A DNA stretch of 64,000 bases from Pseudofrankia sp. DC12 (GTDB lineage Bacteria; Actinomycetota; Actinomycetes; Frankiales; Frankiaceae), in the NCBI RefSeq assembly GCF_000966285.1, contig NZ_KQ031391.1, positions 1,946,640 to 2,010,639 of the forward strand, written 5' to 3'. Shown piece by piece: positions 10,709 through 39,188 of this stretch (the stretch's first letter is position 1; each line of letters begins with the position of its first letter). Under the pieces are notes generated by a model, which was not told the origin of the DNA, did not search any database, and saw only the letters and a list, made by a program, of their open reading frames with translations. Position numbers and translations under genes: made by a program.

Positions 10709-10709
10709 A

Positions 10710-10752
10710 GCTCCCGGCCCGGTCCTCGTCGAGAGAGAGCCGGGCCGGGAGC
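10710..10752. terminator. Bidirectional hairpin terminator between pirin and glgP
   Basis: A 13-bp perfect inverted repeat, GCTCCCGGCCCGG (10710-10722) and its complement (10740-10752), separated by 17 bases. It starts two bases after the pirin stop and lies 23 bp from the glgP stop, so it can serve both convergent genes. Confidence 0.8.
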
Positions 10753-10775
10753 GATACGACGCGCGCCGATCCGAG

Positions 10776-19658: not shown

Positions 19659-20848
19659 GCCATCACCGCCTGGCTGGCCGCGAGCACGTCGACGAAGGTG
19701 TGGCCCGCCTTGAGGACGCCGAAGGCCTCGGCGCGGCGCAGCACGGCCTGGGCCCACAGCCGGTGCGGGCGCAGCTCGTTCATCTTGTTCGCGTAGCTGC
19801 TGCGCCGGACGCCCCCGGTCGCGCCGTCCGCGACCGTCAGCGCGTCCTCGTACTCCTCATGGGTCACGACGTAGAGCGCGTGCACCGCGGCGACGTGGCT
19901 GGGGTGGATGACGGTCTTGCCGATCAGGCCGTTCGCCTTGTCGAGCACGACCTCCTTGATCAGCCGGTCCAGGTCGGCCGAGACCAGGTCGCGGCGCATC
20001 GCCGGGCCCTGGACGACCGGGTCGGCGAGGTCGGCGGTGGCGAACGGGGTGACCCGCAGGGAGCTGACGAACAGCCGCTCCGGCTGGGCGAAGTACTCCC
20101 ACACCGGGCCGGTCACGACGTGGTCGCCGCCGCGCGCGCAGACGTTGACGATGTCGGCGATGCAGTCGCGGACCACGGCGATGTCGTAGATGGTCAGGTC
20201 GCGGTCGCGGCGCAGCCCGTAGAGGCCGGAGAGGTCGGTCGCGCCCAGCCGGACGGCGAGGACGTGGTCGGCGTGCTTGTCGACCAGCCGGCGCACGCCG
20301 AGCAGCGTCTCCAGCCTGGACTCCCGGTTGATCACTTCGGGGCTCTCCAGCACCGGCATCGCCCAGAGCTGCCGGCCCAGGTCGTCGCAGGCGCGCAGGA
20401 CCGCGGCCATGGACATCTCGCCCGAGTCCTCGACGAACTTCGGCAGCACGAAGCCAGCGAGCACGTCGGCCGCGGCGGGTGAGAGGCCCGCGACCAGCGC
20501 CGGGATCTGCTCCGCGGAGCGGACCCGGACGAAGATCATCCCCGGGCTGTCCCCGACGCTCGGCGGGTCCTCGCCCAGCTCGTTGAGCGCGCGCACCACG
20601 TTCGCCTCGGCCGCCGCCACCTCGCCGTCGGAGATCGCGTCTTCCAGACAGAGGACCATGGACGCGACTCCGGCCGCCGACTGGCGGCGCACGTCGTCCG
20701 ACAGCTTCGGCCGGGTGCCTGGGGCGTAGAGGGTCGCGCCGAGGGCGGTGGCCACCAGCCGGCGGTCGTCCTCGCGACTGATCTCCTTCGGCGGGCAGTG
20801 GAACAACGCGTCACGAGCCGCCGGGTCGAGGAAGGCGAAGTGTCGCAC
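19655..20848 (-). CDS. HpcH/HpaI (CitE-like) aldolase/lyase of the Ter-associated operon
   Basis: A TIM-barrel lyase of 397 residues related to citrate lyase beta chains. Key segments are ATLYAPGTRPKLSDDVRRQ, SMVLCLEDAISDGEVAAAE (acidic metal ligand), MIFVRVRSAEQIP (substrate Arg), GFVLPKFVED and PVLESPEVINR, the last two lining the Mg-acyl site. It should cleave or form a C-C bond next to a carboxyl group. It starts at a GTG with AAGGAG nine bases upstream and heads the four-gene operon ending in the HAD phosphatase. The reaction in the Ter pathway is not established; CitE-like enzymes are recurrent members of this module. Confidence 0.85.
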   Translation of the reverse strand: MRHFAFLDPAARDALFHCPPKEISREDDRRLVATALGATLYAPGTRPKLSDDVRRQSAAGVASMVLCLEDAISDGEVAAAEANVVRALNELGEDPPSVGDSPGMIFVRVRSAEQIPALVAGLSPAAADVLAGFVLPKFVEDSGEMSMAAVLRACDDLGRQLWAMPVLESPEVINRESRLETLLGVRRLVDKHADHVLAVRLGATDLSGLYGLRRDRDLTIYDIAVVRDCIADIVNVCARGGDHVVTGPVWEYFAQPERLFVSSLRVTPFATADLADPVVQGPAMRRDLVSADLDRLIKEVVLDKANGLIGKTVIHPSHVAAVHALYVVTHEEYEDALTVADGATGGVRRSSYANKMNELRPHRLWAQAVLRRAEAFGVLKAGHTFVDVLAASQAVMA

Positions 20849-21376
20849 AGAGCGGCTCCTTCAAGGCTCGACGGGCTTCACGCGTGCGCTCTCGGGGCCG
20901 GCCCGGCGTCACCCCCGATCGCCGCCGGACCTGGGGCAACGCCCGACGCGGGGAACGTACCCCCCACAATGACGAAGGTCGCCGGGAAACGGGCCACTGA
21001 CGCCATCACGACATTTTCTTGTAATGTCCACGTTCCGCATGATCTACGCCTGTGTGAACACGGATCCGACGGAGAGGCGGTTGCTCACCGACTGCTACAT
21101 ACGTGTAGTAGTAAGCCCCGCACGCTGGGCTACAACTAGCTCGGGCCTCGCCAGGCGCCCCGGCCGGGCGCCGCTGCGCCGCCGCCGGCCTGTTTAGCCG
21201 CCACCTTCAGTTCATCCGGTGTCCGGGCAGGATCGCGGACATTGCTGGAACCCGGCCGGCCGAATACGCCCGGGTTCCCGATCCGGTTCGCACGGATGAC
21301 ACCTCGCCATCCATCCGGCGAACATCCGGTCACCGACGCGCGGCTCGCCCCCCAGCTCGCCGCCCAGGCTGCTGGC
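20849..21376. promoter_or_regulatory. Upstream region of the Ter biosynthetic operon
   Basis: About 530 bp separating the giant gene's stop from the lyase start. The segment 20990-21130 is clearly AT-richer than its surroundings and contains TTTTCTTGTAATG and an interrupted dyad CTACA-N4-TGTAG (21095-21108). Since the only gene starting here is the minus-strand lyase, a promoter and possible operator for the operon are likely. No protein frame with family features was found. Confidence 0.45.
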
Positions 21377-24300
21377 TCAGCGGATCACGAGCGCCTCGTC
21401 CGGCGGGTGGTCGACCGTGAGGTCGCCAGCGGCCGCGGCGGCTGGCAGCAACCGGATGCCCCAGGGCAGCAGCGCGCCCTCAAGCCGGACATCCATCGTC
21501 CTGGTCGCCCGCTCGGCACTCGGCGCCAGCCGCGCGAGCGCCTGGCCGTCGCCGAGCGTGGCCGGCGGCACCGTCCCCGGCCGGGCGACCAGTACCAGCT
21601 CGGGCACCACGCCGTCGGTGCGGACCCGCAGCCGCAGGACGCGCCTGCGCCAACCCGCCCTGGTCGCGAAGTAGGATACGCGGGGCTCGCCCGAACCGAG
21701 CCGGTCGTCGTCGAGGTCGTCACCGAACTGGTCGTCGTCGGCGTGCTCGTCGGACTCGTCGTCCAGGTCCTCAAGCAGGCTGTCCGCGGCGTCCGACCGG
21801 CCGTCCTGGTCCGAGCGGCCATCCGGACCCGCGGCGGGCTGGCCGGCGCCGTAGCCGTCCGGCGGGCTCCCGCCGGCAGCGGCGGGGACCGTCGCCAGCC
21901 CGGGCGGCCAGGTCGGCGCGCCGAACCCGGCCGCGGCACCCTGGCCGACCGGTGCGAACAGGTCGGTGTGGGTCGCGGGCAGCGTCCAGCCGGCGGGTGA
22001 GTCCGCGGCTGGGGCACCCAGGGCCGGAAAACGGCCCGCCGGGCTGGCGGCACCCGGATCGGCACTGCCCGGCACGGCCGGGGTCCACGCCGGCTCCGCC
22101 CCGGCCTCGGCCAGCGGGGCGCGCGGGGCCTCAGCCGGGAACGGCTGGAAGGCCACCACCGGGACGGGCATCGCCGGACGGAACCAGCCGGGGCCACTCG
22201 GGATCTCCTCGTCGGCTCCCGGCGAGGTAGGCAGCGGCCCGGCCGGCATCGGCCCCACGGCGTCCGGGAGCGGCGCGTCGAACGAAGCCGGGCCGGGACC
22301 GGCCGGGGCACCCAGCCGGCCGACGATGGGCAGCCCCGCGCCGGTGGGCGGATTGACCATCGGTGGCAACGGCCTACCTGGCTGCCGCTCCGGCGCGCCC
22401 GCGGCCATCGGTAGCGGTGTCGGCCCAGTACTCGTGGCGAACCCGGCGGGCGACTGCGGGACCGGTCCCGTGACCGCCTGAGGCTGCGCAGCGCCCGCCG
22501 GCAGCAGCCCTCCAGGCACCGGCGGGCCCCCAACCACCATGGGACCTGCGGCCGGCATCGGGACGCCGACCCGCGGTGGCAGTCCCGTCATCGGCGGCCC
22601 GGCCGACGGCGGCGCGGCGGGAACCGGCGGCTGCGCCAGGCCTGGCGAGGGCATCGGCAGGGCGCCGGTCGACACGGCGACCGGGATCGCGGAGGTCGCC
22701 GGGCCAGCCGGGACCGACGCGAGGTAGGACGGCCCGGGCGCGGCCAACGGCCCGGCCGCGGGGGCAGCGGCTCCGGACGTGGCAAGGGGCGGCACGGCAC
22801 CCGCGTCGACGCGCGGCCGGGCCGGAGCACGCACGACGACCTCCGCGCCGGCGGCCGCGGCCCTCGGCTGCCCGGCCACGCGGAACACCGGGAAGCAGGC
22901 GACGTAATAGGGCCAGCCGTCGCGCGGCGCGGACAGCCGCCAGCCGCCACCGCGCGGCTGCATTCCGGCGACGGTCACGGTCGCGGCGGACGCGGTCGGG
23001 TCGTCCGGACCGGTCGGTGTGCGGTCCCGTCGCCACAGCACCCGCGCCTCGGTCAGGCCCGGCGCCAGCCGGAAGAACAGCACCAGCTCGTCGCCGCGGT
23101 CCTCGGCGCGCAGCTCGGTGACGCCGCCCGGCGCGATGTGCTGCACCGAGCGGCCGGTGACCCCCCGGCCGCCGACCACGCTGACCGGCGTGTAGACGAC
23201 CGGGCCGACCGCGGCCGGGTCCAGCAGCCGGCCGCGCCGGCTGGCGCCCACGAGCCGGACCGGGCCGGTCAGCGCCTCCAGCGGCAGGTCGACGTTCTCC
23301 GGCCCGAACGGCCCGAACGGGCCCACCGGCGCGGCTGGCGGTGCGCCGAACCGGCCGCCAGGCGGCGCACCCACGTCGGGCAGCACGCCGGGCGCCGCGT
23401 AGACCCGCACGTCACCGCCGGGCTGCGCGGTCCAGCGCAGCATCGTCCCACCGGCGGAGTAGGAGACCGCGAGGTCGAGCACCGGCAGTGGCCGCGCCAC
23501 CACCGGTACCGAGATCTCGACGCCGGCCGTGCGGGCCGGCATGCCGTCGGCGGCGACGTACTCCACGGAAAGCCGGTAGCGGTAGGTGACGCCGGCCTGG
23601 ACGTCCGGGTCGGTCAGCGTGCCCCCGCCGGCCCTGGTGTGCCGCACGGACCGGTCGACGACGCGGGCCGCGCCGGGTGCCGCACCACCGCCGGTCGCCG
23701 GGTCGGCGTCCTCATCGGCCGCCAGCTCGACGCTCGGGTCGACGGCGTCGACGGCGCGCTCGACCGTGACCACCTGGACCGGGCCGTCGAGCCGCCAGGT
23801 CAGCCGGACGCCATCCGCGGTCTGCGCGGCGCGCAGCTGCTCGACCTCGCGGGTCAGCACCAGTGGCGCCGTCCGCGCGACAGCCGAACGGCGGTTGGCC
23901 GAAAACGCCGTCACCTCGTAGAAGACCGGCGCCCAGGCAGGGGCGCCGGCGTCGGTCAGCTCGGCGACGGTGGTCGTGCCCAGGCCGGCCCGGGTCGGCG
24001 GGACGCCGAGAGTGCCGGCGACCACCCGGTCCACCCAGAAGGTGACCGGGGCGGCGGTGTCGGCGGACCGCCAGCGCAGCAGCACCGCGCCGGTCGGCCC
24101 GGTGGCGACGGTCGGCACCGCGACGAGGTCGGCGGGCGCCCCGAGCGGCAGGGCGGCCAGCGCCGCGAGCGCCTCGGGACTGTCGGAGGCGCTCGCGAGC
24201 ACCGCCACCAGCGCCGCCTCGCGCTGGGCCGGCGGCAGCCCGAGCGCCGCGTCGACCCGGCGGCGGATCATCGCCTGCGCGACGGTCAGCTCCGCGAGCA

Positions 24301-25747
24301 CCTCGGCGGCGTCCCGGCCGTCCGGCCCGCGCACGTCGGCCGCCTGTGCTACCAGCCAGCGAGCCCGGTCCAGCGCGGCCTGGGCCCGCCCCGCCGCGCG
24401 GTCGTCGGCCAGCGCCCGCCAGCCGGCCTCCGCCGCGGCCAGCGCCGCCGCGGCGCGCGCGGCCAGTTCCTCACCGACGGCGCCGGCCGGGCCGCCGAGC
24501 GCGGCCAGCAGGGGCCTGGCCCGGCCGACGAGCTCGACGGCCTGGGCGGGCTGTCCCTCGTCGAGGGCGCGGCGGATCGCGCCGATGGCCTCGGTGGCGT
24601 CCCTGGACTGCCGCACGCTCTGCCCGCAGTGCCGGCAGACGACGGCCGCGGCCTCGGTGAGCCGCGCGCAGCTGGGGCAGACGACGTAGAGGTCCGTGTC
24701 GCAGTAACGGCAGACCCGCACCTCGCCGACCGGCTCCGGGCGCGCGCAGCTGGGGCAGACGACGAAGTCGACGGTCGCGCCCGTGCTCACCGGGACGCCG
24801 AGGTCGCGGGCGAGGCCGAGGACGACGGTCCGGATCTGGGCCGCGCTCAGCCCGCGCCCGGTGCCCAGCGCCCGGCGCATCAGGCCCTCGAACGCGACGG
24901 CGGTGATCTCGCCGTCGAGGAGGACGTGCTCCTCGACGGCGCCGCGCAGCTCCTCGGCGGCGTCCGCGAGCAGGCCGGCGGAGTAGGCGGCCGGGTCCGC
25001 CTCCAGCAGCCGGGCCCGGACCAGCGCGAGCAGGTCGGCCGTTACCGTCTTCTCCCGGTCGTGCGGCCGGCGGGCGTTCACGGCGGCGACCGCTTCGTAG
25101 GCGGCGGCCAGCCGCGCCGGCGGCGACTCCGGCGCGACGCCGAGGAAGGCCCAGAGCGAGGCGGTGGACGCGTGGTCACCGCGGCGCAGCGCCCTCAGCT
25201 CGTCGAGCCGGTCGCGGATCTGGCCTCGCGCGTCAGGCGGCAACGGGGCCACCCGAGCGCCGGCGGCATCCTCGATGATCCGTTCCCGGGCCAGCCGGAC
25301 GTCGAACCGCTCGCCGGTCACGCCGGCCTGCGCGGCCAGCCGGCGCAGCCCGTCAACCCGGGAGGTCGGGATGCCGCCGAACCTCTCCCGGACCGTGGCC
25401 AGGTACCCGTCGACCTTCGCGAGCCGCTCCGTGTCGCCGTCCCGCCGGGCCTCGACGACAAGGGCCCGGACCCGCTCGCGCTGCGCGGGGTCGAGAAGCG
25501 GAGCCTCCCACTCGGCGCGGCGGCGGACCAGCTCGGTGGCGAGCGTGGCGTACTTCGCGGAACCGCGCTCCCGCTGCAGGAAGCCGAGCACGCGGGCGAG
25601 CCGGGCCGCCACGTCCGCGTCGGAGTGGCTGCCCTCGGGGTCGAGGTCGGCGACGAGGAACGGGTCGTCGATGCGCAGCGGGGAACGCGCCCGCAGCACC
25701 GCCAGCACCCGCTGGCGATAACCGCTGCCGTCGAAAGCCGCGCTCAC
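21377..25747 (-). CDS. Giant zinc-ribbon / FN3-like repeat protein of the Ter-Hsp70 block
   Basis: A 1,456-residue cytoplasmic-looking protein without signal peptide or membrane segment. Residues 1-330 are mainly helical. Residues about 331-380 hold four CxxC pairs (CPSCARP, CRYCDTD, CPSCARL, CRHCGQS), consistent with two zinc ribbons. A helical stretch to about 520 follows, then several beta-rich modules resembling fibronectin type III (for example VTFWVDRVVAGT, GVTYRYRLSVEYVAADG, VLFFRLAPGLTEARVLW) to about 960. Next come a Pro/Ala/Gly-rich linker with acidic patches and a small beta domain (1365-1456). Its catalytic role is unknown. It follows the Hsp70 gene on the same strand and may be a scaffold or client adaptor of that system. 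Confidence 0.75.
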   Translation of the reverse strand: MSAAFDGSGYRQRVLAVLRARSPLRIDDPFLVADLDPEGSHSDADVAARLARVLGFLQRERGSAKYATLATELVRRRAEWEAPLLDPAQRERVRALVVEARRDGDTERLAKVDGYLATVRERFGGIPTSRVDGLRRLAAQAGVTGERFDVRLARERIIEDAAGARVAPLPPDARGQIRDRLDELRALRRGDHASTASLWAFLGVAPESPPARLAAAYEAVAAVNARRPHDREKTVTADLLALVRARLLEADPAAYSAGLLADAAEELRGAVEEHVLLDGEITAVAFEGLMRRALGTGRGLSAAQIRTVVLGLARDLGVPVSTGATVDFVVCPSCARPEPVGEVRVCRYCDTDLYVVCPSCARLTEAAAVVCRHCGQSVRQSRDATEAIGAIRRALDEGQPAQAVELVGRARPLLAALGGPAGAVGEELAARAAAALAAAEAGWRALADDRAAGRAQAALDRARWLVAQAADVRGPDGRDAAEVLAELTVAQAMIRRRVDAALGLPPAQREAALVAVLASASDSPEALAALAALPLGAPADLVAVPTVATGPTGAVLLRWRSADTAAPVTFWVDRVVAGTLGVPPTRAGLGTTTVAELTDAGAPAWAPVFYEVTAFSANRRSAVARTAPLVLTREVEQLRAAQTADGVRLTWRLDGPVQVVTVERAVDAVDPSVELAADEDADPATGGGAAPGAARVVDRSVRHTRAGGGTLTDPDVQAGVTYRYRLSVEYVAADGMPARTAGVEISVPVVARPLPVLDLAVSYSAGGTMLRWTAQPGGDVRVYAAPGVLPDVGAPPGGRFGAPPAAPVGPFGPFGPENVDLPLEALTGPVRLVGASRRGRLLDPAAVGPVVYTPVSVVGGRGVTGRSVQHIAPGGVTELRAEDRGDELVLFFRLAPGLTEARVLWRRDRTPTGPDDPTASAATVTVAGMQPRGGGWRLSAPRDGWPYYVACFPVFRVAGQPRAAAAGAEVVVRAPARPRVDAGAVPPLATSGAAAPAAGPLAAPGPSYLASVPAGPATSAIPVAVSTGALPMPSPGLAQPPVPAAPPSAGPPMTGLPPRVGVPMPAAGPMVVGGPPVPGGLLPAGAAQPQAVTGPVPQSPAGFATSTGPTPLPMAAGAPERQPGRPLPPMVNPPTGAGLPIVGRLGAPAGPGPASFDAPLPDAVGPMPAGPLPTSPGADEEIPSGPGWFRPAMPVPVVAFQPFPAEAPRAPLAEAGAEPAWTPAVPGSADPGAASPAGRFPALGAPAADSPAGWTLPATHTDLFAPVGQGAAAGFGAPTWPPGLATVPAAAGGSPPDGYGAGQPAAGPDGRSDQDGRSDAADSLLEDLDDESDEHADDDQFGDDLDDDRLGSGEPRVSYFATRAGWRRRVLRLRVRTDGVVPELVLVARPGTVPPATLGDGQALARLAPSAERATRTMDVRLEGALLPWGIRLLPAAAAAGDLTVDHPPDEALVIR

Positions 25748-26241
25748 GCAGTACCCCGAGTTCGCTCCGGCGCCGCACCCGCTGCGGCCTCGTCCTCGTA
25801 CCTCGGACGAGACCTCCGCTCGCTTGCGCCTGCGCTCACGTCACCCTCGTCTCACGTAACGCCGTGCCGAGCGAGCAGGCGCCAGCCGCCGCGAACCACC
25901 CACGTCCGGGCCCCGGAGAGCGGGTGGGACGAACCGCCGCCACCACGCGATCGCCTGCTCTGAGGGGCTCTTCCGTTCCATCACCAGGTTACGGACCACC
26001 CCCGTCCGGGGTCGCACGGGTCGCCCCGTCAGCACCGTCCGCGAACCCCTGAACGGGGACGACCCAGCAGCAGCGAGAGGCGACCAGACCACCCGAGCGC
26101 ACTCAGCCAAGATCCGGACCCTGGACGGCGGCCAACCCCGAACATCTCGGCCCGCCTCGATCCAACGTTGGCGAGGGCGCTCAACGCCCGAGCCGGCGAA
26201 GGCGGCCCACGGGCGCTCCGCGCCCGCCGGCCGCCTTCGCC
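25748..26241. other. Intergenic region with a 3'-flanking palindromic repeat
   Basis: About 490 bp between the Hsp70 stop and the giant gene's start. The half nearest Hsp70 (26117-26225) is one copy of the repeat family described separately. The remainder is Arg/Pro-biased GC-rich DNA without a convincing frame. Confidence 0.6.
26117..26225. repeat. Dispersed palindromic repeat, copy 1 (3' of Hsp70)
   Basis: GACCCTGGA at 26117, then GGCGAGGG 53 bp later leading into the palindrome GGGCGCTCAACGCCC (26175-26189), and a second palindrome GGGCGCTCCGCGCCC (26211-26225). The same ordered parts occur at 31931 and 48193. It ends 17 bp beyond the Hsp70 stop and could act as a terminator. Confidence 0.7.
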
Positions 26242-28077
26242 TTAATCGCGGCGTTCGACGAGCTTGTTGACCTTCTCGGCCTCGGCGGTGCGCAGCGCCT
26301 CGCTGCCGACGCCGGCGGTGACCCGCAGCACGAGCGGGTCGGCGGTGCCCGGGTGGGTCGCGCGGACCTCGATCGTCTGGTCGCGGCCCATGATGAAGGT
26401 CACCTCGACAGGCGTGCCGCGCTGGTGGCCGGACGGGATGCCGCGCAGCGCGCCGGCGACGATGACCTTGTTGTCCTCGATCACCGGGGACGCGACCGCG
26501 GTGCCCTGTTCGAAGACCCGGATGTCGACCTCGGTCTGGTCGTCGGTGACGGTGTAGAAGGTCCTGGCGACCGAGATCGGCAGCGGGTCGTTCTGCTGGG
26601 CGAGGAACGCGGCCACCGGCCGGCCCCGGTCCTCGGCGAAGATGCCGAAGCCCCGGGACGTGACGTTCGTGACGGTGGTGCGTACCAGGTCCGCCACGGC
26701 GGAGGCCGGCAGCCCGACCTCGCCGGCCCGTTCGGCCGCCGCCGCGGCGACGTCGGCGTCGGAGGCCGCCGTCAGGTCGTCGTCGGCCCCGATCCGCCCA
26801 GCCTTCACCAGGTCGTCGCGGACGGCCCGCTCCAGCGCCTTCTTCTGGCCGTAGACGGCCGCGCCCTTGGCCACCGCGAGGTCCGGGTCGATCAGCTTGC
26901 AGGTGAGCCCGAACTGCTCGGCGAGCCGGCGGGCTACCGCGGGCGACTTGCTCATGCCCCCGACGAGCAGGCAGGTGTCGATCCGGTCGACGCCCTTCTC
27001 CTTCGCCCGCCCGAGGACCGACGCCGTGAGCTCGACCGTGCGGTCCAGCAGCGGCTTCGTCAGCTCCTCGAAGGAGGACCTGGTCACCGTCACGCTGGTG
27101 CGCCGGCCACCGTGCACGACCAGCACGTCGACGCTCTCCCGGCCGGACAGGGCGAGCTTCGCGTCCTCGGCCGAGGTGAGCAGCTCCTGCTCGTCGTAGA
27201 CGTCGTCGAGCGGGTCACCGGCGTCCGGCTGCGCCTCGACGAACCGGCGGGCCAGGTGGCGGACCAGCTCCAGGTCCCAGTCGGCGCCACCGAGCTCGTG
27301 GTCGCCGTCGGTGGCGACGACGGTGATGCCGCCCTCTCGCAGCCGGATCACGGTCGTGTCGAAGGTTCCGCCACCGAGGTCGTAGACGAGGACCGTCGAC
27401 TCGGCCGCGCCGTCCTGGGCGAAGCCGTAGGCGAACGCCGCGGCGGTTGGCTCGTTGATGATGTCGACGACCGTGAGCCCGGCGAGCTCGCCGGCGAGCT
27501 TGGTCGCCTTGCGCTCCTCGTCGCCGAAGTAGGCGGGCACCGTGATGACGACGTCGGTCACCGGGCCGCCGGTGGCGCGCTCCGCGTCGGCGGCCAGGGC
27601 CTTGAGAACCAGGCTGGAGACGGCGGCGGCGGTGTACTCGACACCGTGCGCGACGAACCTCCAGTCCGACGTGCCCATGTGCCGCTTGACCAGGCTGGCC
27701 ACGTCGTCCGGCCGGATCCGCAGCTGGCGCTTGGCCTGCGTGCCGACGACGAACGACACCTGACGCTCGGCGCCCTCGTCGAACAGCACCACGCTCGGGG
27801 TGGTCGGCTGCGACTCGATGTTGCGGATCACGTCCGGCCGGCCGTACTCGTCCAGCCGCGCGATGCACGAGTAGGTCGTCCCGAGGTCGATCCCGAAGAC
27901 CTTGGCGCCCCGTCCGCCGTCGCCTGACCTGCCCGAGGCCAGGTCGCCTGAGGCCAGGTGCGGGCCTGAACCGCCTGAGGCCAGGTGCGGGCCTGAACCG
28001 CCTGAGGCCAGGTGCGGGCCGTCTGCCACGCCGCCACCGTCCCTTCCGACGCGCCGCCTGGGCGCCGCGTTTGTCAT
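26242..28077 (-). CDS. Lidless Hsp70 (DnaK-like) chaperone of the Ter block
   Basis: About 611 residues with an N-terminal low-complexity tail carrying a nine-residue repeat, then an Hsp70 ATPase: KVFGIDLGTTYSCIARL (phosphate 1), VLVYDLGGGTFDTTVIRL (phosphate 2), TCLLVGGMSKSPAVARRL (adenosine). The substrate-binding beta domain is recognisable (NVTSRGFGIFAEDRGRPV, PLPISVARTFYTVTDDQTEV). The chain ends at KVNKLVERRD with no C-terminal helical lid, unlike DnaK. A short Ala-rich helical insertion follows the ATPase. GTG 28080 or ATG 28077 can start; a further GTG about 50 bases inside is possible. The GrpE-like gene upstream is its probable exchange factor. Confidence 0.88.
   Translation of the reverse strand: MTNAAPRRRVGRDGGGVADGPHLASGGSGPHLASGGSGPHLASGDLASGRSGDGGRGAKVFGIDLGTTYSCIARLDEYGRPDVIRNIESQPTTPSVVLFDEGAERQVSFVVGTQAKRQLRIRPDDVASLVKRHMGTSDWRFVAHGVEYTAAAVSSLVLKALAADAERATGGPVTDVVITVPAYFGDEERKATKLAGELAGLTVVDIINEPTAAAFAYGFAQDGAAESTVLVYDLGGGTFDTTVIRLREGGITVVATDGDHELGGADWDLELVRHLARRFVEAQPDAGDPLDDVYDEQELLTSAEDAKLALSGRESVDVLVVHGGRRTSVTVTRSSFEELTKPLLDRTVELTASVLGRAKEKGVDRIDTCLLVGGMSKSPAVARRLAEQFGLTCKLIDPDLAVAKGAAVYGQKKALERAVRDDLVKAGRIGADDDLTAASDADVAAAAAERAGEVGLPASAVADLVRTTVTNVTSRGFGIFAEDRGRPVAAFLAQQNDPLPISVARTFYTVTDDQTEVDIRVFEQGTAVASPVIEDNKVIVAGALRGIPSGHQRGTPVEVTFIMGRDQTIEVRATHPGTADPLVLRVTAGVGSEALRTAEAEKVNKLVERRD
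27946..28020 (-). repeat. 27-bp tandem repeat in the Hsp70 N-terminus
   Basis: Two complete identical 27-bp units (27946-27972, 27973-27999) and 21 bases of a third, in frame, each encoding the nine-residue unit GPHLASGGS. A degenerate partial copy flanks the array. The identity between units points to recent expansion. Confidence 0.9.
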
Positions 28078-28333
28078 CACCGCCGCCCACCCGGAACGCC
28101 GGCCGTGGTTGTGTCACGGCCAACCGGCGACACGCTGGTCTGACTGTTTGCCCACCTGTTTTGTACCTAGCGCTACCCGGCCGGCCGTCACCGCCCCCTT
28201 TTCGGGCGCATGAGGCCACCAGGGCGACACGGTACGTCCTCACCCGGATCGTCGCGTGGGACCACATCAACGACGATCACGAACCGGTCGCCGTCCCGGC
28301 GGCCGATCGGGCTCGCAGCGGCGGCCGGCGGCA

Positions 28334-29398
28334 TCAACGGTGCCGGTACACCTCGGCCTCGGCCGGGCGCAGCACCGTCGAGGAGCCGCGGACGAAGCCG
28401 GGCCGCACGCCGCGGGCGATCGTGCGGTCGCGAGCCGGGTCGTCAGTGCCGACCCCGCGCAGCGCGAGATGGCGGGTCGGGTCGAAAGGGCTGCCCGGCA
28501 CCGCGATGTAGGGCCGAACATCGGCGGAGATATCCAGTACCTGCAGCAGCTGCTTGCACAGGATGCCGGCGACGCTCTGCGGGTCGTCCGCGCCGAGGCT
28601 CGACATCTGGTCGTGCAGCCGGATCAGGCCGCGCAGCAGCGGGCCCATCGCCTCGGTCAGCTCGCCCTGGCGCAGCTTGCCGTTCTCCTCGTGCAGGCGG
28701 TCGACCAGCTCGACGTCGTGCCGGCGCAGCCTGGCCAGCTCGTCGAGCCGGCGGGCCACCGTGGCGAGCTCCTCGGCGAGGCCGCCGGCGCCGGCGGCGC
28801 GCGACCCGGTCCCGTTCTCCCCAGGGATCGTCCGCTCGCCGGCTCGTTCGGCGCCCTGCCGGTCGGCGCCGGCGCGGTCGCCGCCGGGCGGCGGGACCTG
28901 CCCGCGGGTCGGCGCGGGCGGGGCACCGACCGGATCGGCGCCGGAGTCCCGGCCGGACTGGCGAAGCCGATCTGGGAGGTCGGCGGCCCGGGAGGTCGTC
29001 CAGTCCGGACCGGTTCCCGCCTCCACGTAGGTGTCGTAGTCGTACGGCCCCGCCTCGACGAACGGCGGAAGACTGTCGATCGACCCCCGCCCCGTGACCC
29101 CGGGAAGCCCCGATGTCCCGCGCGGCGGACTGCCTGGGTCGGGCTCCCCGCCCCGGGCGGAACCTCGAGCGCCGTCGGCCAGCCCGGGCGCCGCACGCAC
29201 GCCGTCCGGCGCGGTGATGCTGCCCGGCAGCGCGGCGGCGGGCACAGTCGGCAGCGCCGTCGGCGAGCCGCCCACGCCGGACAGGCCCGGCAGGCCGGTG
29301 GTCTCGGCGTCCGGGCCATCGCCCTGGGCGGGACCGTGCGGGTCGGCGCCGGGGAACCAGCGGCCCGCCCGGTCCCGCCGGCGGCGGGGTTCGGTCAC
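28334..29398 (-). CDS. GrpE-like nucleotide exchange factor with long disordered N-terminus
   Basis: A protein of about 354 residues. Residues 1-205 are Pro/Gly/Ala-rich and probably disordered. From about 206 a long helix predicts a coiled coil (AEELATVARRLDELARLRRH through ENGKLRQGELTEAMGPLL), and the end of the chain (DRTIARGVRPGFVRGSSTVL, then RPAEAEVYR) resembles the GrpE beta-wing that contacts the Hsp70 ATPase. The GTG at 29398 overlaps the terD stop as GTGA. The Hsp70 gene starts 254 bp downstream on the same strand, supporting an exchange-factor role. Classical GrpE proteins are shorter, about 200 residues, so this is a specialised form. Confidence 0.75.
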   Translation of the reverse strand: MTEPRRRRDRAGRWFPGADPHGPAQGDGPDAETTGLPGLSGVGGSPTALPTVPAAALPGSITAPDGVRAAPGLADGARGSARGGEPDPGSPPRGTSGLPGVTGRGSIDSLPPFVEAGPYDYDTYVEAGTGPDWTTSRAADLPDRLRQSGRDSGADPVGAPPAPTRGQVPPPGGDRAGADRQGAERAGERTIPGENGTGSRAAGAGGLAEELATVARRLDELARLRRHDVELVDRLHEENGKLRQGELTEAMGPLLRGLIRLHDQMSSLGADDPQSVAGILCKQLLQVLDISADVRPYIAVPGSPFDPTRHLALRGVGTDDPARDRTIARGVRPGFVRGSSTVLRPAEAEVYRHR

Positions 29399-30069
29399 TT
29401 GCGGCCCGGCGTCCAGTTGAGGCCCCAGTTGTAAAGGGCGTCGAGCTGACGGTGGCCGCCGACGTACTTGACCTCCCGGCTGACGGTGAAGTCGCCGGCG
29501 CCGTTGTTCGTCAGCAGCGCGATGGCGCACATCCGGGAGCCGCCGGCCTGCTCGTCCAGGTGGACCTCGATCGGGGCGCCCTGTGCGGGGGTCAGCGTCG
29601 CGACCGCGTTGGCCTGGTCGAAGGAGGCCACCCCCTCGTAGATGAACGCGAAGATCAGCAGCCGGCGGATCTGCCCCGCCCGCGCCAGGTTGACGTAGAG
29701 GTTCTCGCCGCCGACCGCGGACCCCGTCCGGTCGTCGGCGTCGAGCAGGACGAACGGCGGGGCGTCGAAGGCGCCGAAGGTGTCACCGAGGGCCTGGATG
29801 ACCCCCTTCTGGCCGTCGCTCAGCTCATAGAGAGCGGCGAGGTCGAGGTCGATCCCGCCGGTGCCACCGAGCACCCGCTTGAGGAAGCCGCCCTTCTGGG
29901 GGGCACCGGCCTGCCAGTTCAGGTTCACGTGCAGCCGCCCGCCGCCGCCCTGTTTGGACAGCGACACGCTCGGCGCGGACTTCGTGAGGGTGACCTTGCT
30001 CAGGGACACCCCGGGCGTCGCGCCACCCGGCCCGCTGGCCGCCCCTGGGTTCGGGTTGTCGAAAGCCAT
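29395..30069 (-). CDS. TerD-family protein, long form
   Basis: A 224-residue TerD/TerE/CABP1-type protein. These small beta-sandwich proteins bind calcium and take part in tellurite, phage and stress responses at the inner membrane face. Family marks are SVSLSKQGGGGRLHVNLNW, GGIDLDLAALYELSDG with paired acidic residues, GGENLYVNLARAGQIRRLLI, and IYEGVASFDQANAVATL. It is longer than the usual 190-odd residues because of an extra N-terminal stretch with a second VSLSK-like strand. The ATG follows AAGGAG at optimal spacing. Its stop overlaps the start of the GrpE-like gene, linking Ter and chaperone functions in one transcript. Confidence 0.93.
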   Translation of the reverse strand: MAFDNPNPGAASGPGGATPGVSLSKVTLTKSAPSVSLSKQGGGGRLHVNLNWQAGAPQKGGFLKRVLGGTGGIDLDLAALYELSDGQKGVIQALGDTFGAFDAPPFVLLDADDRTGSAVGGENLYVNLARAGQIRRLLIFAFIYEGVASFDQANAVATLTPAQGAPIEVHLDEQAGGSRMCAIALLTNNGAGDFTVSREVKYVGGHRQLDALYNWGLNWTPGRK

Positions 30070-30429
30070 GTCCGCTCCTTCGCGGTCGTCGTCCGCCGCC
30101 GCCCGCCGGGCGTCCGGGAGAGCCTCCTCGGACCATCAACCCGGCCCCCGGTAGGGGTGGCGCGGCTTCCCGAGCACTGGTCGACCTGGGGCCTGTCAGC
30201 CTCCCCGGCATCGACCACCGAACACCCCCCGACGATCCCGTCGACCATTCTGCACAGCGGCCGGCTCGGCGCAGACCGCCGGTTCGGCTCGGTCGCCCTA
30301 CCCAGACAACGTGCCTGGTCCCGAAGAGGCTCCGTGCGGCCAACATCCGGGCTGCCCACACGGCGTCGGCCGGGCCCCGACCCGGGACTCGCGTGTGCCG
30401 GTCCACTCCGCCGGCGGCGGGTGGCGCCG
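30070..30429. promoter_or_regulatory. Upstream region of the terD-grpE-like-hsp70 genes
   Basis: 360 bp between the DUF475/TerC-like stop and the terD start. It probably holds the promoter of the terD-led transcript. A palindromic GGCGCC-N10-GGCGCC pair overlaps the end of the TerC-like gene. No frame with family features was found. Confidence 0.45.
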
Positions 30430-31551
30430 TCAGGAGCTGGCGCCGACCGGTTCCGCGGTGGTGCTCTCGTCTGAGCTACCGCCCTCGTCCGCCTTGTGCC
30501 TGCGGTGGCGGATCGAGGTCAGCAGCGCCAGTCCGATGAAGGCGACACCGATCAGCCCGGTGACGATCTCGGGCACGTCGTTCTCGATCGAGACGGCGAG
30601 GATCACCGCCAGCGCGCCGATCGCGTAGTGCGCGCCGTGCTCGAGGAACACGTACTCGGACAACGTCCCCTGGCGGACCAGGAAGACGGTCAGCGACCGG
30701 ATGTACATCGCCCCGATGCCGAGACCGGCGGCGATGACGAAGATGTTCTGCGAGATCGCGAACGCTCCGACGACGCCGTCGAACGAGAAGCTCGCGTCCA
30801 GCACCTCGAGGTAGAGGAACAGGAAGAAGGCGGCCTTGCCGGTGGCGAGGGCCGCGGTGGACGCCCCGCCCGCGGTGGCCGGCTTTCCCTCGCCGTCGTC
30901 GTCGTCCTCGGCGCCGATCCCGCGCGACTCGAAGAACTCGCCGAGGCCGCTGACGGCCAGGTACACCGCCAGACCGGCCACTCCGGCGACGAAGACCTGC
31001 TCGGTGTGGCCGTCGGAGAACGCCTCGCCGACGACGAGCAGCGCGACCAGCGCGATCACGATCGGGATGACGTCCAGCGCGCCGATCTTGCGCAGCGGCT
31101 CTTCCAGCCAGCGCAGCCACTGGACGTCACGCTCGTTGTCGAACATGAAGTCCAGGAAGATCATGAAGAGGAAGATCCCGCCGAACGCGGCGATCGCCGG
31201 GTGTGCGGCATGGAGCTTCGCCGCGTACTGATCGGAATGGTTCACCGCGAGGTCGAAGACGTCATACGGGTTCAGATGAGCCGTGAGCGCGACGACCACG
31301 ATCGGGAAGATCAGCCGCATGCCGAAGACGGCGATCAGCACACCGAGCGTCAGGAACACCCGCTGCCAGGCGGGGCTCATCCGACCCAGGACCGTCGCGT
31401 TGATCACCGCGTTGTCGAACGACAGACTGATCTCGAGGACGGCCAGGATCGCCACGAGCGCCGCGGCCTGGCCGCCGCCGAGCACTCCGGCGCCAGCGAT
31501 GACCACGGCGGTCACGGCGAATGACCAGCCGAAGATCCGCAAGATGTGCAC
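30430..31551 (-). CDS. DUF475 / TerC-like integral membrane protein
   Basis: A multi-pass membrane protein of about 373 residues with roughly eight or more hydrophobic segments. The TerC/DUF475 signature acidic residues within the membrane appear twice: LAVLEISLSFDNAVINATVL and YLEVLDASFSFDGVVGAF. TerC-like proteins have been linked to Mn efflux and to tellurite resistance and complex with TerD proteins at the membrane. An acidic loop (EDDDDGEGKP) lies mid-chain. The GTG at 31551 has GGAGG about ten bases upstream; the GTG at 31563 overlaps that site and is less likely. It lies between two terD genes on the same strand. Confidence 0.92.
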   Translation of the reverse strand: MHILRIFGWSFAVTAVVIAGAGVLGGGQAAALVAILAVLEISLSFDNAVINATVLGRMSPAWQRVFLTLGVLIAVFGMRLIFPIVVVALTAHLNPYDVFDLAVNHSDQYAAKLHAAHPAIAAFGGIFLFMIFLDFMFDNERDVQWLRWLEEPLRKIGALDVIPIVIALVALLVVGEAFSDGHTEQVFVAGVAGLAVYLAVSGLGEFFESRGIGAEDDDDGEGKPATAGGASTAALATGKAAFFLFLYLEVLDASFSFDGVVGAFAISQNIFVIAAGLGIGAMYIRSLTVFLVRQGTLSEYVFLEHGAHYAIGALAVILAVSIENDVPEIVTGLIGVAFIGLALLTSIRHRRHKADEGGSSDESTTAEPVGASS

Positions 31552-32081
31552 CAGTACCTGCACCTCCGCGGACCGGTCTAGGGATGATGGTCAGCCGGCG
31601 CCCTTGGCGCTGCGGCTCCGGTCCGCCGGAGTCCACCGCACCGCCGTGATCGGCGCCGCCGTCAGCCGCGCTCAACAACGCGTGCCGGCCGGCCACCCGC
31701 TCCCCGCCCCGCGGGAGCTCCGGCGGACCGAGGCCGCACCAGACAGCCGGCCAACGACACGCTCGTAGAGGGTGCGCGACCCTCGCATCGTAGCCAGCCC
31801 CACCTGGGACAAAGCTGACAAGCGGCCGACAAGATGTGAACAATCACCGGTCCGACCTGCCAGGCCACCCATTCGACCTGGCAGGTACCCAAGAGCGACC
31901 GCCAACCGACCCAAACCCAGCCGACGTCCGGACCCTGGATCCGCGCCTGCCTCAGGCCTTCTGCACCACAGGAGAATCACATTGGCGAGGGCGCCCAGCG
32001 CCCGAGACGGCGCCGCGGCCGGCGGGCGCTCCGCGCCCGTTCCGGCCTCGGCGCCCTCCGCGCCCGTTCCGTGCGCTCACC
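31552..32081. other. Intergenic region with a 3'-flanking palindromic repeat
   Basis: About 530 bp between the second terD stop and the TerC-like start. The part adjoining terD (31931-32066) is a copy of the dispersed repeat. The segment 31800-31980 is less GC-rich and probably contains the TerC-like gene's promoter. No credible protein frame. Confidence 0.55.
31931..32066. repeat. Dispersed palindromic repeat, copy 2 (3' of terD)
   Basis: GACCCTGGA at 31931, GGCGAGGG at 31984 (again 53 bp apart), palindrome GGGCGCCCAGCGCCC (31989-32003), then GGGCGCTCCGCGCCC (32024-32038) and a further related GC palindrome to about 32066. It abuts the terD stop at 32082. Confidence 0.7.
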
Positions 32082-32657
32082 TCAGACGTTGACGCCGTAG
32101 TCCTGGGCGATGCCGCGCAGGCCGGTGGCGTAGCCCTGGCCGACCGCCCGGAACTTCCAGTCGGCGCCGTGCCGGTAGACCTCGCCGAAGATCATAGCGG
32201 TCTCGGTCGAGGCGTCCTCGGACAGGTCGTACCGGGCGATCTCAGCGCCGCCGACCTCGTTCGCGATCCGGATGAAGGCGTTGCGCACCTGGCCGAAGCT
32301 CTGCTGCCGCGACTCGGCGTCGTAGATCGAGACCGGGAACACGATCTTGTCGATCTCCGGCGGCAGGCTGGCGAGGTTCACCTTCACCTGCTCGTCGTCG
32401 CCCTCGCCGGCGCCGGTGAGGTTGTCACCCTGGTGCTCGATAGCGCCGTCCGGGCTTTTCAGGTTGTTGAAGAAGACGAAGTACTGGTCGGAGAGCACCC
32501 GACCGTCAGCGCGGCACGCGATCGCGCTCGCGTCGAGGTCGAAGTCCGATCCGGTCGTCGTCCGAGCGTCCCAGCCGAGACCGACCATGATGCTCGTGAG
32601 GCCAGGTGCCTCCTTCGACAACGAGACGTTGCCGCCCTTGCTGAGGCTGACTCCCAC
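32082..32657 (-). CDS. terD: TerD-family stress protein, standard length
   Basis: 191 residues, exactly the usual TerD length. It starts [20 protein letters not shown], the family hallmark, followed by [20 protein letters not shown] (calcium-binding acidic set), [39 protein letters not shown] and the second acidic set near [20 protein letters not shown]. It should bind calcium and act in stress response together with TerC-like membrane proteins. The GTG at 32657 follows GGGAGG with seven to nine bases between; the longer frame adds only non-conserved residues. It lies 530 bp upstream of the TerC-like gene on the same strand. Confidence 0.96.
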
Positions 32658-33479
32658 TGTTTTTCCTCCCGCTGTCCGTGCGGACGGGGCTTCGGCGCCC
32701 CGAGCACCCACACCCTGGCTCTGCCGGTACGAGCGGCAGCCTACTGCCCATACCGGGCCGGACCGGGCGCTCGCCCGTCCGGGCGACATCCACCGGGGCT
32801 TCTGAAGAGCCATACGAATGATGCTGTGCCCAGAGTTCCCAACGCGGGCGGCGCGCCCAGCGCCGAATGCGAAACATGGCCCGCCGCGGGGACGCGCCAG
32901 TCCAGGGAACGTCCTCATAAGGACTGCTTTCCGGCGCGAGGGCGGCCGTCGGCGCGCCTCGCGGCACCCGGAACGCGCCGCGCGCGGCCCCGTCGCGCGG
33001 CCGACGACAGCGGGCGGCGGCGATGCCCCGACGCTCCACCGCGTCGACCGTCGCCGCACCGTCCACGCGGGCTCGTCCGACACCGCGTGGCGGCCGAGTC
33101 CGCGGCCCGGCCGCTCGGCGACCGGCCAGACTCCGGGCAGATCGCACGAAGGTGGGGGCGTCATGGCAATTCCAGGTGAACGGCCTGCTGAGAGCGACGG
33201 CGCGGCGGCCCGCTGAGGCGGGTGTCAGCCGTCGCGCCGCCCCGCCACGATCGACGTGGTCGACGACGGACTGCGGCCCACGTGGTTTCCCAGACCCAAC
33301 CTGGGAACATCGACCACGGGCCAACCGGCCGGGCGCTCGTCCCACGCCCAGAGTCACCCCCACCACATCACCACCTGGGGGTGTCCGGTGGTCTCACGCA
33401 GTTCACGTTGGGGTATCGCCATTTGCCATCTCGGAGGCGGATCATTGAGCCCGTGGTTCGTCTGGATAAGGTCGCAGCG
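32658..33479. promoter_or_regulatory. Divergent regulatory region between terD and glgE
   Basis: About 820 bp with no frame carrying a recognisable motif. It must contain the promoters of terD (leftward) and glgE (rightward). A strong inverted repeat lies at 33355-33383. The last 70 bp before glgE are AT-richer. Open frames here are Arg/Pro/Ala-biased, as expected of noncoding GC-rich DNA. Confidence 0.5.
33355..33383 (+). promoter_or_regulatory. Inverted repeat upstream of glgE (possible operator or leader hairpin)
   Basis: Perfect 8-bp arms CACCCCCA (33355-33362) and TGGGGGTG (33376-33383) with a 13-base CA-rich spacer, ending 96 bp before the glgE ATG. Confidence 0.45.
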
Positions 33480-35461
33480 ATGATCGGACGTTCAGTAGGC
33501 CGGGTCGTCATCTCTGACGTCACCCCGGCCGTCTCGTGTGGCCGCTGGCCGTCGCGCGCGGTGATCGGGGAAACCATCACCGTGGGCGCAACTGTGTTTC
33601 GGGAAGGTCACGACCTCATCGGGGTGAACGCGACGCTGTCCGGCCCTGACGGGCTCGGGGCGCCGTTCACCCGGATGCGGCCCGTGGGCGCCGGAACTGA
33701 CCGTTATGAAACCGACCTCACGGTCACGGCCGAGGGGCTCTGGGGCTTCCGGATCGAGGCCTGGGCGGACCCCGTCGCGACGTGGGTGCACGGCATCGAG
33801 CTGAAGGTCGGCGCCGGGCAGAGCTCGGACGAGCTCGCCGTCGACTTCGAGGACGGCGCCCGCCTGCTGCTGCGCGCGCTGCCCGGCGTGCCCGAGCGTG
33901 AGCGGGCGGCGGTCGCCCGCGCGGCGGCGGCGCTGCGCGACGACCACCTCCATGACCCGCACCAGCGGATCGCCCCGGCCTGTGCCCCGGAGCTGACCGA
34001 CCTGCTGGCCAGGTACCCGCTGCGTGAGCTGGTGACCCGCTCCCCGCTGCACCGGGTGTGGGTCGACCGCGAACGAGCCCTCTACGGCAGCTGGTACGAG
34101 TTCTTCCCGCGGTCGGAGGGCGCCTCGCTGGACCCGCCGCGTTCGGGGACGTTCCTCACGGCCGCGGACCGGCTGCCCGCCGTCGCCGAGATGGGTTTCG
34201 ACGTGGTGTACCTGCCGCCGATCCACCCGATCGGCGAGGTCAACCGCAAGGGCCCGAACAACACCCTGACCCCCGGGCCGGACGACCCGGGCTCGCCGTG
34301 GGCGATCGGCAGCGAGCACGGCGGCCACGACGCGGTGCACCCGGGCCTCGGCACCCTCGAGGATTTCGACCTGTTCGTCGCGCGGGCCCGCTCGCTCGGT
34401 ATGGAGGTCGCGCTCGACCTCGCTCTGCAGTGTGCCCCCGACCACCCGTGGGCGAAACGCCATCCGGAATGGTTCACGGTTCGTTCCGACGGCTCGATCG
34501 CGTACGCGGAGAACCCACCGAAAAAGTACCAGGATATCTATCCACTGAACTTCGACTCGGACCCGGACGGTATCTACCAGGAGATCCTCCGCGTCGTTCG
34601 GCACTGGACCTCGCACGGTGTACGCATTTTCCGGGTGGACAACCCGCACACCAAGCCGGTCGAGTTCTGGGAGTGGCTCATCCGGGAGGTGAAGGCGACG
34701 GAGCCGGACGTGCTGTTCCTCGCGGAGGCGTTCACCCGGCCCGCGATGATGCACACGCTGGCGAAGGTCGGCTTCACCCAGTCGTATACCTACTTCACCT
34801 GGCGCAACGTGAAGTGGGAGCTGGAGGAGTATGCCCGCGAGCTGGTCGAGGCGGCCTACTACATGCGGCCGAACTTCTTCGTGAACACCCCGGACATCCT
34901 CTCGGAGTACCTCCAGCACGGCGGCCCGGCGGCCTTCCGGATCCGGGCGGCGCTGGCGGCGACGATGTCGCCGGCCTGGGGCGTCTACGCGGGGTACGAG
35001 CTGTACGAGCGCGTCCCGGTCCGGCCGGGCAGCGAAGAGTACCTCGACTCGGAGAAGTACCAGTACCGGCCGCGCGACTGGGCCGCCGCCGAGCGCAACG
35101 GCGCGTCGCTGGCGCCCTACCTGAGCAGGCTCAACGCCATCCGCCGTGCCCACCCGGCGCTGCACTGGCTGCGCAACCTGCACATCCATCACTCGGACGG
35201 CGATGAGATCATCGCCTTTTCCAAGCGGTCCGGAACCGGACCGGACGCCGACGTCGTCATCGTCGTCGTCAACCTAGATCCGCATGCAGCTCGGGAGACC
35301 ACCGTGCGACTTGACATGCCTGCCCTCGGCCTCGAGTGGTGGGAGACCTTCGACGTCCGGGACGAGATCACCGGGGCCACCTACACCTGGGGCCGGGAGA
35401 ACTACGTCCGCCTCGACCCGTTCGTCGAGCCCGCCCATGTGTTCACGCTGGCACGGCGGTC

Positions 35462-35465
<4 letters not shown>
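33480..35465 (+). CDS. glgE: Maltose-1-phosphate maltosyltransferase GlgE
   Basis: A GH13_3 enzyme of 661 residues that extends alpha-1,4-glucan with maltosyl units from maltose-1-phosphate. The N-terminal beta domain opens MIGRSVGRVVISDVTPAVSC and continues GETITVGATVFREGHD, as in GlgE. Active-site segments are FDVVYLPPIHPIGEVNRKGP, FRVDNPHTKPVEFWEW (nucleophile Asp) and LFLAEAFTRPAMMHTL (acid Glu), with YTYFTWRN typical of the subfamily. The ATG at 33480 gives the N-terminus seen in relatives. Its stop overlaps the treS start as ATGA, and mak and glgB follow, giving the complete GlgE pathway. Confidence 0.97.
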
Positions 35466-37216
<1,751 letters not shown>

Positions 37217-37700
37217 ACCGACGCCGGGAGCCCGCCCGGCACGCCCGGCCGGGCCGCCGCGTGTTCGTATGGGAGCGCCCGCCCAAGGGCGGGTGGGCGC
37301 TTGCCATCTCTGGCAAATCGGTTGGACAAGTGCTATCTACCGGATGACAGGTCCGTTAGGTTGACGGCAGCCGCAAAGGCGTGTCGGTACGCCGGCCCGG
37401 CCCATCGGGGTCAGGCCGCAGGGCCCTATTTTGGCGGGCCGTGGCATGTGGGCTCCGGTCGCTCGTCTCAGCTCGCGTCCCAGGGGAACTACTCAACTGA
37501 ACACCGCCACATCCGACGGCCCGCGAGGGGATAACGCCTCCGGATCCGGGGACAACGGCCCTCCGGCTGCGTGATCGAGATGCGCGTGCCCAAGCCGCCG
37601 GCACCTCTCGAAGCGCGGTCCTTGGCCCTGCGTCAACTACAGGCTCCGGCCGTGCGAGGAGATCACGATCGCACAGCCGCCGGCCAGAGGGAGGTCGACC
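37217..37700. other. Intergenic region between treS and mak
   Basis: About 480 bp. A GC hairpin lies at 37274-37301 shortly after treS, followed by an AT-richer stretch (37300-37375, including TTGGACAAGTGCTATCTACC) that may carry a separate promoter for mak. No convincing protein frame. Confidence 0.5.
37274..37301 (+). terminator. Putative terminator hairpin after treS
   Basis: AGCGCCC (37274-37280) pairs with GGGCGCT (37295-37301), and inner GCCC/GGGC bases extend the fold. It lies 58 bp after the treS stop. No T run follows. Confidence 0.5.
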
Positions 37701-39095: not shown

Positions 39096-39146
39096 GGCGC
39101 CGAGGTTGACCGGGCGGCTAATAGGGGCACGCAAGAGAGGAACATC

Positions 39147-39188
39147 GTGACACCAGCCGGAAGACCGGAAGAGACGCGTGGGAGCTGA
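39147..39188 (+). other. Possible 13-codon leader ORF upstream of glgB
   Basis: A GTG with GAGAGG six bases upstream opens a short frame, [13 protein letters not shown], whose TGA at 39186 lies one base before an in-frame GTG of glgB (39190). It has a better ribosome site than glgB itself. It could couple translation into glgB, but it may also be chance. Confidence 0.25.

Follow-up and report, generated by a model that had tools for sequence, protein, structure and literature searches.

Within a 64,000-nucleotide stretch of DNA from Pseudofrankia sp. DC12 (hereafter the window, corresponding to positions 1946640-2010639 of a 6.88-Mb one-contig genome), we investigated a run of minus-strand genes in which a TerA-type gene is followed by genes for a GrpE-like factor, an Hsp70 without a lid and a large protein with J-like modules. 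Judged from its gene content, the minus strand from 16151 to 32657 is a Ter-dependent stress cluster, with the GrpE-like/Hsp70/tandem-J trio lying in mid-cluster. All of its genes share one strand, in the order terD, terC, terA, grpE-like, lidless hsp70, J-like/zinc-ribbon, C-C lyase, PRTase/TRSP and StiP/PELOTA, and are listed here in that order with the features discussed below (AF2, AlphaFold2; aa, amino acids; ORF, open reading frame; NBD, nucleotide-binding domain; SBD, substrate-binding domain).

~32082-32657, minus strand: terD, 191 aa (GTG start at 32657 inferred; PF02342, E 1.7e-83 on the enclosing ORF)
30430-31563, minus strand: terC-like/DUF475 membrane protein (PF04332, E 2.7e-119; TerC PF03741, E 8.5e-20)
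29395-30069, minus strand: short terA-type gene (44% identity to terA-named proteins)
28334-29398, minus strand: GrpE-like gene with a GTG start (PF01025, E 1.7e-4, and the AF2-predicted GrpE fold)
28337-28786, minus strand: predicted GrpE domain, residues ~205-354 (AF2 model, structure matches)
26242-28080, minus strand: lidless Hsp70, NBD plus SBD-beta (PF00012, E 8.6e-97; alignments)
27463-27465, minus strand: codon of Hsp70 Asp206, at the position of DnaK R167 (alignments)
26671-26841, minus strand: Hsp70 insert, residues ~414-470, in place of the VLLLD linker (alignments)
21377-25747, minus strand: tandem J-like/zinc-ribbon/FN3-like protein, 1456 aa (synteny with Hsp70, weak domain matches)
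25439-25684, minus strand: J-like module 1, residues ~22-103 (AF2; VIA-align Z up to 6.8 to J-domains)
25553-25555, minus strand: codon of Lys65 in J-like module 1, where the HPD position reads S-A-K (triplet alignment)
24950-25183, minus strand: J-like module 2, residues ~189-266, with P-H-D in the HPD columns (VIA-align)
24623-24757, minus strand: weak double zinc ribbon, residues 331-375 (DZR PF12773, E 2e-4, 21.9 bits against a cut-off of 27.3)
19655-20848, minus strand: Ter-type C-C bond lyase (PF15617, E 2.5e-120)
18216-19757, minus strand: PRTase_2 plus TRSP (PF15609, E 3.2e-66; PF12500, E 3.2e-37)
16996-18762, minus strand: StiP cysteine protease plus PELOTA (PF11202, E 4.7e-98; PF15608, E 2.7e-32)
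16151-16999, minus strand: HAD-like hydrolase, a weak match (PF08282, E 0.0064, below the cut-off)

The ORFs at 29395-30069, 28334-29398 and 26242-28080 agreed with those of an initial annotation, made from the sequence alone, which had proposed a Ter-linked chaperone system at this site. Anantharaman et al. reportedly described, in 2012, Ter-dependent stress response systems with TerD, TerC, TerA, a C-C bond lyase, PRTase/TRSP and StiP/PELOTA; the same components are present here (from Pfam matches and homology), plus the GrpE-like/Hsp70/J-like trio between terA and the biosynthetic genes. The nearest named locus is that of Frankia sp. AgB1.9, the Hsp70 of which is 99% identical to the window's, and canonical dnaK, grpE and dnaJ are encoded elsewhere in the window genome, at 3.07 Mb. 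On its flanks the cluster has glycogen-type genes (a phosphorylase at 10776-13331 and, within 33222-41469, glgE from 33222, an alpha-amylase-family gene from 35336, and glgB).

The TerA-type gene and its Ter neighbours

On sequence homology, the 29395-30069 product is a TerA-type protein inside the wider TerD superfamily: proteins bearing the gene name terA match it with 44% identity over 91% of the query, and it has no Pfam TerD (PF02342) match at E ≤ 1. A PF02342 TerD identity was accordingly rejected for this product, the 'long-form terD' of the initial annotation being a loose family name; the gene that does match PF02342 (at ~32082-32657) lies two genes upstream, with the terC/DUF475 gene intervening. 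Profile comparison of the product with true TerD gave 63% probability, as expected within one superfamily. In a plasmid collection it matched 2609 of 72,556 records, and among 40 plasmid rows sampled across the ranking, 13 had the gene name terA and one more the product name TerA, the others reading 'TerD family protein' only (23), 'Tellurium resistance' (one), hypothetical (one) or being unannotated (one). The terD gene is 82-98% identical across 13 Frankiaceae blocks. A Mycobacteroides (actinobacterial) plasmid has the same terD-DUF475-terA order, including a 'Tellurium resistance' protein with 54% identity to the terA-type product, and these three Ter genes together are therefore ordinary; what comes after them here is not.

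The GrpE-like, Hsp70 and J-like proteins

The GrpE assignment of the 28334-29398 product was upheld by fold, its Pfam score for PF01025 (21.7 bits, C-terminal part only) being below the cut-off of 25.8. The C-terminal 154 residues gave a confident AF2 model (predicted local distance difference test (pLDDT) 90.1, predicted template modelling score (pTM) 0.63), predicted to adopt the GrpE fold, with a long helix and a C-terminal beta-wing: VIA-align returned Z 12.5 to GrpEL1 (9blt; 145 residues, root-mean-square deviation (rmsd) 2.8) and Z 12.4 to GrpE (1dkg), and all 11 Foldseek matches with E ≤ 0.001 were GrpE. A phmmer search of the PDB with the GrpE-like protein (P0001) gave six matches (best E 0.14), none of them GrpE, and a search of the plasmid collection with the domain gave no match. 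The N-terminal extension, initially described as 200 disordered residues, is Gly/Pro-rich and poor in order-promoting residues (19% Gly, 15% Pro and 14% order-promoting residues in residues 1-200), consistent, as far as composition goes, with disorder; its apparent length is far from fixed (156-943 residues in 18 Frankiaceae loci), and some of these extensions show short repeats.

The terA stop does overlap the GrpE-like GTG start, as GTGA at 29395-29398. The same 4-bp overlap as in the window was found in 3 of the 18 loci (L084-L086; L and G numbers denote loci and genomes), with gaps of 19-252 bp in the remaining 15 (computed with the first ATG/GTG as start, so that starts are inferred). On these sequences the overlap looks like a genus trait, and translational coupling, which the overlap had initially been taken to indicate, was rejected as a general feature because the overlap is limited to one genus.

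The Hsp70 gene follows the GrpE-like gene on the same strand, as annotated, though not directly, with 253 bp between the GrpE-like stop and the first Hsp70 start. Alignment with the genome's own DnaK showed the phosphate and adenosine motifs of the NBD to be intact, and the beta substrate domain is present; the SBD-alpha lid is lacking in the window Hsp70 and its 27-row group. Retention of the ATPase motifs with loss of the lid, as first proposed, is thus borne out: only 44-46 residues come after the equivalent of DnaK D481 in 27 Ter-copy Hsp70 rows, versus 156 and 159 in two canonical DnaKs. Among 32 other Hsp70-J pairs, 14 have 47-48 residues and 18 have 62-181 at this end (a comparison of length only). 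The VLLLD linker is lost (L390 to K/T/R and L391 to V/I in 27/27 rows), the interdomain linker stretch extends over 66 residues versus 19 in DnaK, and in the 27 Ter-copy rows Q378 is changed to Tyr or Phe and D477 is replaced.

The next gene downstream (21377-25747) bears on the initial statement that no J-domain protein is seen nearby, as two J-domain-like modules are predicted in its N-terminal part. The absence of a J partner was therefore rejected in favour of a predicted J-like partner, on the evidence of AF2 (pLDDT 88.4, pTM 0.51) and VIA-align, in which 25 of the first 36 rows were named J-domain, DnaJ, Hsp40 or HscB (Z 5.0-7.3, mostly on residues ~22-103 or 189-266); the alignment of module 2 with the Tid1 J-domain (2dn9), for example, reached Z 7.3 over 75 residues with rmsd 3.2. 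At neither module position does any row have the HPD motif (data for 57 of the 59 rows at each), and no Pfam J-domain match was found in the protein at E ≤ 1. Compared with the DnaK-DnaJ-GrpE machine, the window's proteins have in common the NBD motifs, SBD-beta and the predicted GrpE and J-like folds; they differ in having no lid, VLLLD linker or HPD, in the longer linker stretch and in a swap of the charges at the positions of DnaJ D35 and DnaK R167, considered below.

Distribution and kinship with known systems

At E ≤ 1e-120 the Hsp70 (query P0002) had a match in 34 of the 35 family genomes, and two such matches in 28 of these 34 Frankiaceae genomes. The order terD-terC-terA-grpE-hsp70-J, proposed from one strain, recurred in all 18 Frankiaceae Ter-copy loci whose contigs reach far enough (of 26; the other 8 are truncated). 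In 23 of 34 genomes the lyase lies no more than 10.2 kb away on the same contig; the remaining 11 have it on another contig or gave a weak match only. Across 58 named loci with a J-like relative, Hsp70 was directly upstream in every one. Of 296 genomes in a class sample, 37 had GrpE-like matches, 28 the J-like N-terminus (27 Frankiaceae and G164) and 67 TerA, 39 of the last being without the J-like gene; all 28 genomes with the J-like gene had a TerA-type match (one weak, in G027), a count strongly confounded by kinship. Other arrangements were also seen: in all four Geodermatophilaceae loci terA is divergent to the hsp70-J pair; Ter genes lie within ~10 kb of the pair in a Pseudonocardia (L113) and in a metagenome-assembled genome (MAG) of Mycobacteriales (L127); and in G164 (L080) terD, terC, terA, J-like and Hsp70 genes are clustered but rearranged, with a weak GrpE match (E 9e-9). 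Conserved synteny and the adjoining Ter biosynthetic genes support the proposal, made initially, of a dedicated chaperone machine tied to the Ter system; physical wiring to a Ter protein, or control of the chaperones by calcium, would be conjectural.

In a midpoint-rooted tree of 71 Hsp70 rows, the Frankiaceae Ter copies, the Frankiaceae second copies and the Geodermatophilaceae each formed one group, and seven proteins of GAP1-type loci formed one group beside 60 Hsp70-J proteins. A second copy of the Hsp70/J-like pair stands, for instance, at G000:C1:1801992-1804873 (L039), among genes that appear housekeeping-like by eye. Two Geodermatophilus loci have two similar tandem genes between the Hsp70-J pair and terC (L115, 15359-16624; L136, 15294-16559), which look AIM24-like.

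The combination of HSP70 and GrpE with an FNIII protein that carries a fused DnaJ domain is described as a theme of GAP1-N2 systems found in ~14% of neighbourhoods (Kaur et al. 2020, PMC7159879). Because of this shared theme (HSP70, GrpE and a DnaJ/FNIII-type protein; theme 2 of that account) and the neighbouring Hsp70 tree group, the chaperone trio is a Ter-linked variant of the known GAP1-N2 module, and the module as such is not new. What differs here is the link to a full Ter cluster and a J-like part that is predicted to be tandem and without HPD; neither GAP1-N2 nor DO-GTPase was found among the window cluster genes scanned. The middle region of the J-like protein has weak similarity (E 1e-8 to 2e-4) to proteins of GAP1-type loci, and the fn3 matches of some of these relatives fall below the Pfam cut-off.

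Ten class-sample GrpE matches lay outside Frankiaceae: six (L071-L076) near a similar Hsp70, two (L077, L078) near a J-TPR type, one in G164 (L080) and one (L079) in a housekeeping dnaK-grpE-dnaJ set. DO-GTPase2 and GAP1-N2 were both above cut-off in L071, L073, L074, L076 and L082, DO-GTPase2 in L072 and GAP1-N2 in L081; L075, which breaks off within its J-like gene, was not scanned for DO-GTPase2, leaving six of the seven GAP1-type loci positive. L082, a Frankiaceae locus (G020), is a second and different Ter/chaperone junction, in which a 584-aa TerD-domain protein (10687-12441; PF02342, E 6.1e-17) stands directly upstream of a GrpE-Hsp70-FN3-type-DO-GTPase2-GAP1 set. L077 (6004-9473) and L078 (10091-13241) encode another lidless Hsp70 together with a J-TPR protein that has APD for HPD, with a GrpE-like gene following in L078; of the two J-TPR proteins, one passes the Pfam DnaJ cut-off and the other falls short of it. 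A known defence-system label was unsupported for the cluster in the window, seven proteins of which gave no PADLOC match, and among the titles listed by searches of the open PMC literature none announced a Ter-GrpE-Hsp70 cluster or a charge-swapped pair.

A possible private Hsp70 cycle

Work in E. coli reports that DnaJ D35 bonds to DnaK R167 and that His or Asp changes in HPD abolish stimulation (PMC8215388), and that DnaK R167A or R167H can pair with DnaJ D35N (PMC13012618, PMC5519331). At the R167 position, the Hsp70 of the window and of 57 of the 58 named loci has Asp (58/59, with Gly in L135), as do five of the seven GAP1-types (Asn in two); elsewhere the residue is Arg (the genome's own DnaK, L079 and L077), His (L078) or Gly (L080). 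At the D35 position, all 57 rows with data have Lys or Arg in J module 1 (the triplet being HPK/HPR outside the Frankiaceae Ter copy and SAK/SAR/ATR inside it), and Asp is kept in module 2 in 52 of 57 rows with data. These alignments suggest that the D35/R167 charges may be reversed in a natural, insulated Hsp70/J pair, and the retained Hsp70 Asp and J Lys/Arg argue against simple decay, since the replacements are conserved on both sides. A further-reaching proposal is possible, if doubtful on balance: that inversion of the DnaJ Asp35-DnaK Arg167 contact made an orthogonal Hsp70/J pair and was fixed early in a mostly lidless actinobacterial Hsp70 clade, one branch of which became a dedicated Ter remodelling engine.

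The reading that we prefer, to which we give about an even chance, is that the locus combines a Ter-dependent stress cluster with an insulated Hsp70 cycle of its own, remodelling Ter complexes or a sensed client (the likelihoods that we attach to this reading and to the alternatives below overlap). In the mechanism that we infer, the zinc-ribbon/FN3-like part of the J-like protein would bind clients (probably assemblies of TerA/TerD at TerC, a membrane protein, or else a signal of stress or of an invader); one of the J-like modules, presumably module 1, would hand these to the lidless Hsp70; ATP hydrolysis by the Hsp70 would remodel, assemble or disassemble the Ter complex; and the GrpE-like factor would reset the cycle. 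Because the Hsp70 has no lid, client binding is expected to be fast and weak, which would suit a switch or threshold more than it would a chaperone that folds proteins, and the reversed charges, together with the lost HPD and linker, would separate this cycle from the housekeeping DnaK-DnaJ-GrpE.

Several observations weigh against an insulated, Ter-dedicated cycle. For the J-like N-terminus, all VIA-align Z scores are below 8; Foldseek gave no match whatever at E ≤ 0.001, its first J-domain row coming at rank 8 (E 1.6, template modelling (TM) score 0.64 by the target's length), below unrelated helical-repeat proteins; and hhalign, with a J reference of four sequences, was weak for module 1 (probability 1.3%, E 0.042, HPK placed near HPD) and aligned just 23 columns of module 2 (87%). 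No GrpE was found next to this Hsp70-J pair in the loci of Geodermatophilaceae. Nor is the pair's Ter link universal: none of the 18 second-copy Frankiaceae loci had TerA, TerC or GrpE in the stretches examined (L128 has a TerD-like gene); no Ter gene was found near the pair in 2/2 Virgisporangium, 4/4 Nocardioides and 1/1 Nocardia loci or in a further MAG (L119, 8.7 kb); and in G014 terA adjoins the lyase with no chaperone gene between, the chaperones being on a different contig. As for the charge swap, R167D is most simply one ancestral event, fixed once, and so reflects long retention rather than repeated co-change; L080 and L135, which are sisters, have Gly at the R167 position, paired with Lys in L080; and the J loop can be aligned with confidence only in rows that keep H-P.

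Among the alternatives, we regard as rather unlikely that the chaperone genes represent a branch of GAP1-N2 theme 2 that has moved here and senses invaders, with the Ter proteins as effector or sensor and the cluster mainly anti-phage, in spite of the seven GAP1/DO-GTPase-type Hsp70s forming the neighbouring tree group, DO-GTPase2 being above cut-off in six of those seven loci and GAP1-N2 in five, the TerD-domain protein that adjoins such a set in Frankiaceae (L082) and the description of the module in GAP1-N2 systems (PMC7159879). The cluster genes scanned include no GAP1 or DO-GTPase, PADLOC matched none of the seven proteins, and presence in 34 of 35 Frankiaceae genomes is unlike that of patchy defence islands. 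TerA/TerC and the Ter biosynthetic genes are, moreover, tied to metal/stress response, which also counts against a mainly anti-phage role.

We are similarly sceptical that the Hsp70 is no longer J-driven, J docking having been lost on both sides, such that Hsp70 and the J-like protein would form a structural, ATP-sensing scaffold. Such a scaffold would fit the lack of HPD in both modules (57 rows with data for each) and the changes in the 27 Ter-copy rows, where R167, Q378, D477 and the linker leucines are all replaced; two of the replacements are, however, themselves conserved (Asp in 58 of 59 Hsp70s, and Lys or Arg in every one of the 57 J modules with data), pointing to selection rather than decay, and the Hsp70 catalytic motifs are intact. 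That these are extra general-purpose stress chaperones merely co-regulated with the Ter genes seems least probable, even though stress genes often cluster and the second Frankiaceae Hsp70-J copy stands away from terA and terC, given the lost lid, the altered linker and J contact, and a Ter association that recurs across lineages and orientations.

The molecular function of Ter proteins is unsettled, and the proposal that we favour, in which Ter complexes would be assembled or dismantled by a private Hsp70, is concrete and testable. In addition, the swapped contact, if true, would provide a natural test of the rule that contact between HPD and Arg167 is required, as well as a ready-made insulated chaperone pair.

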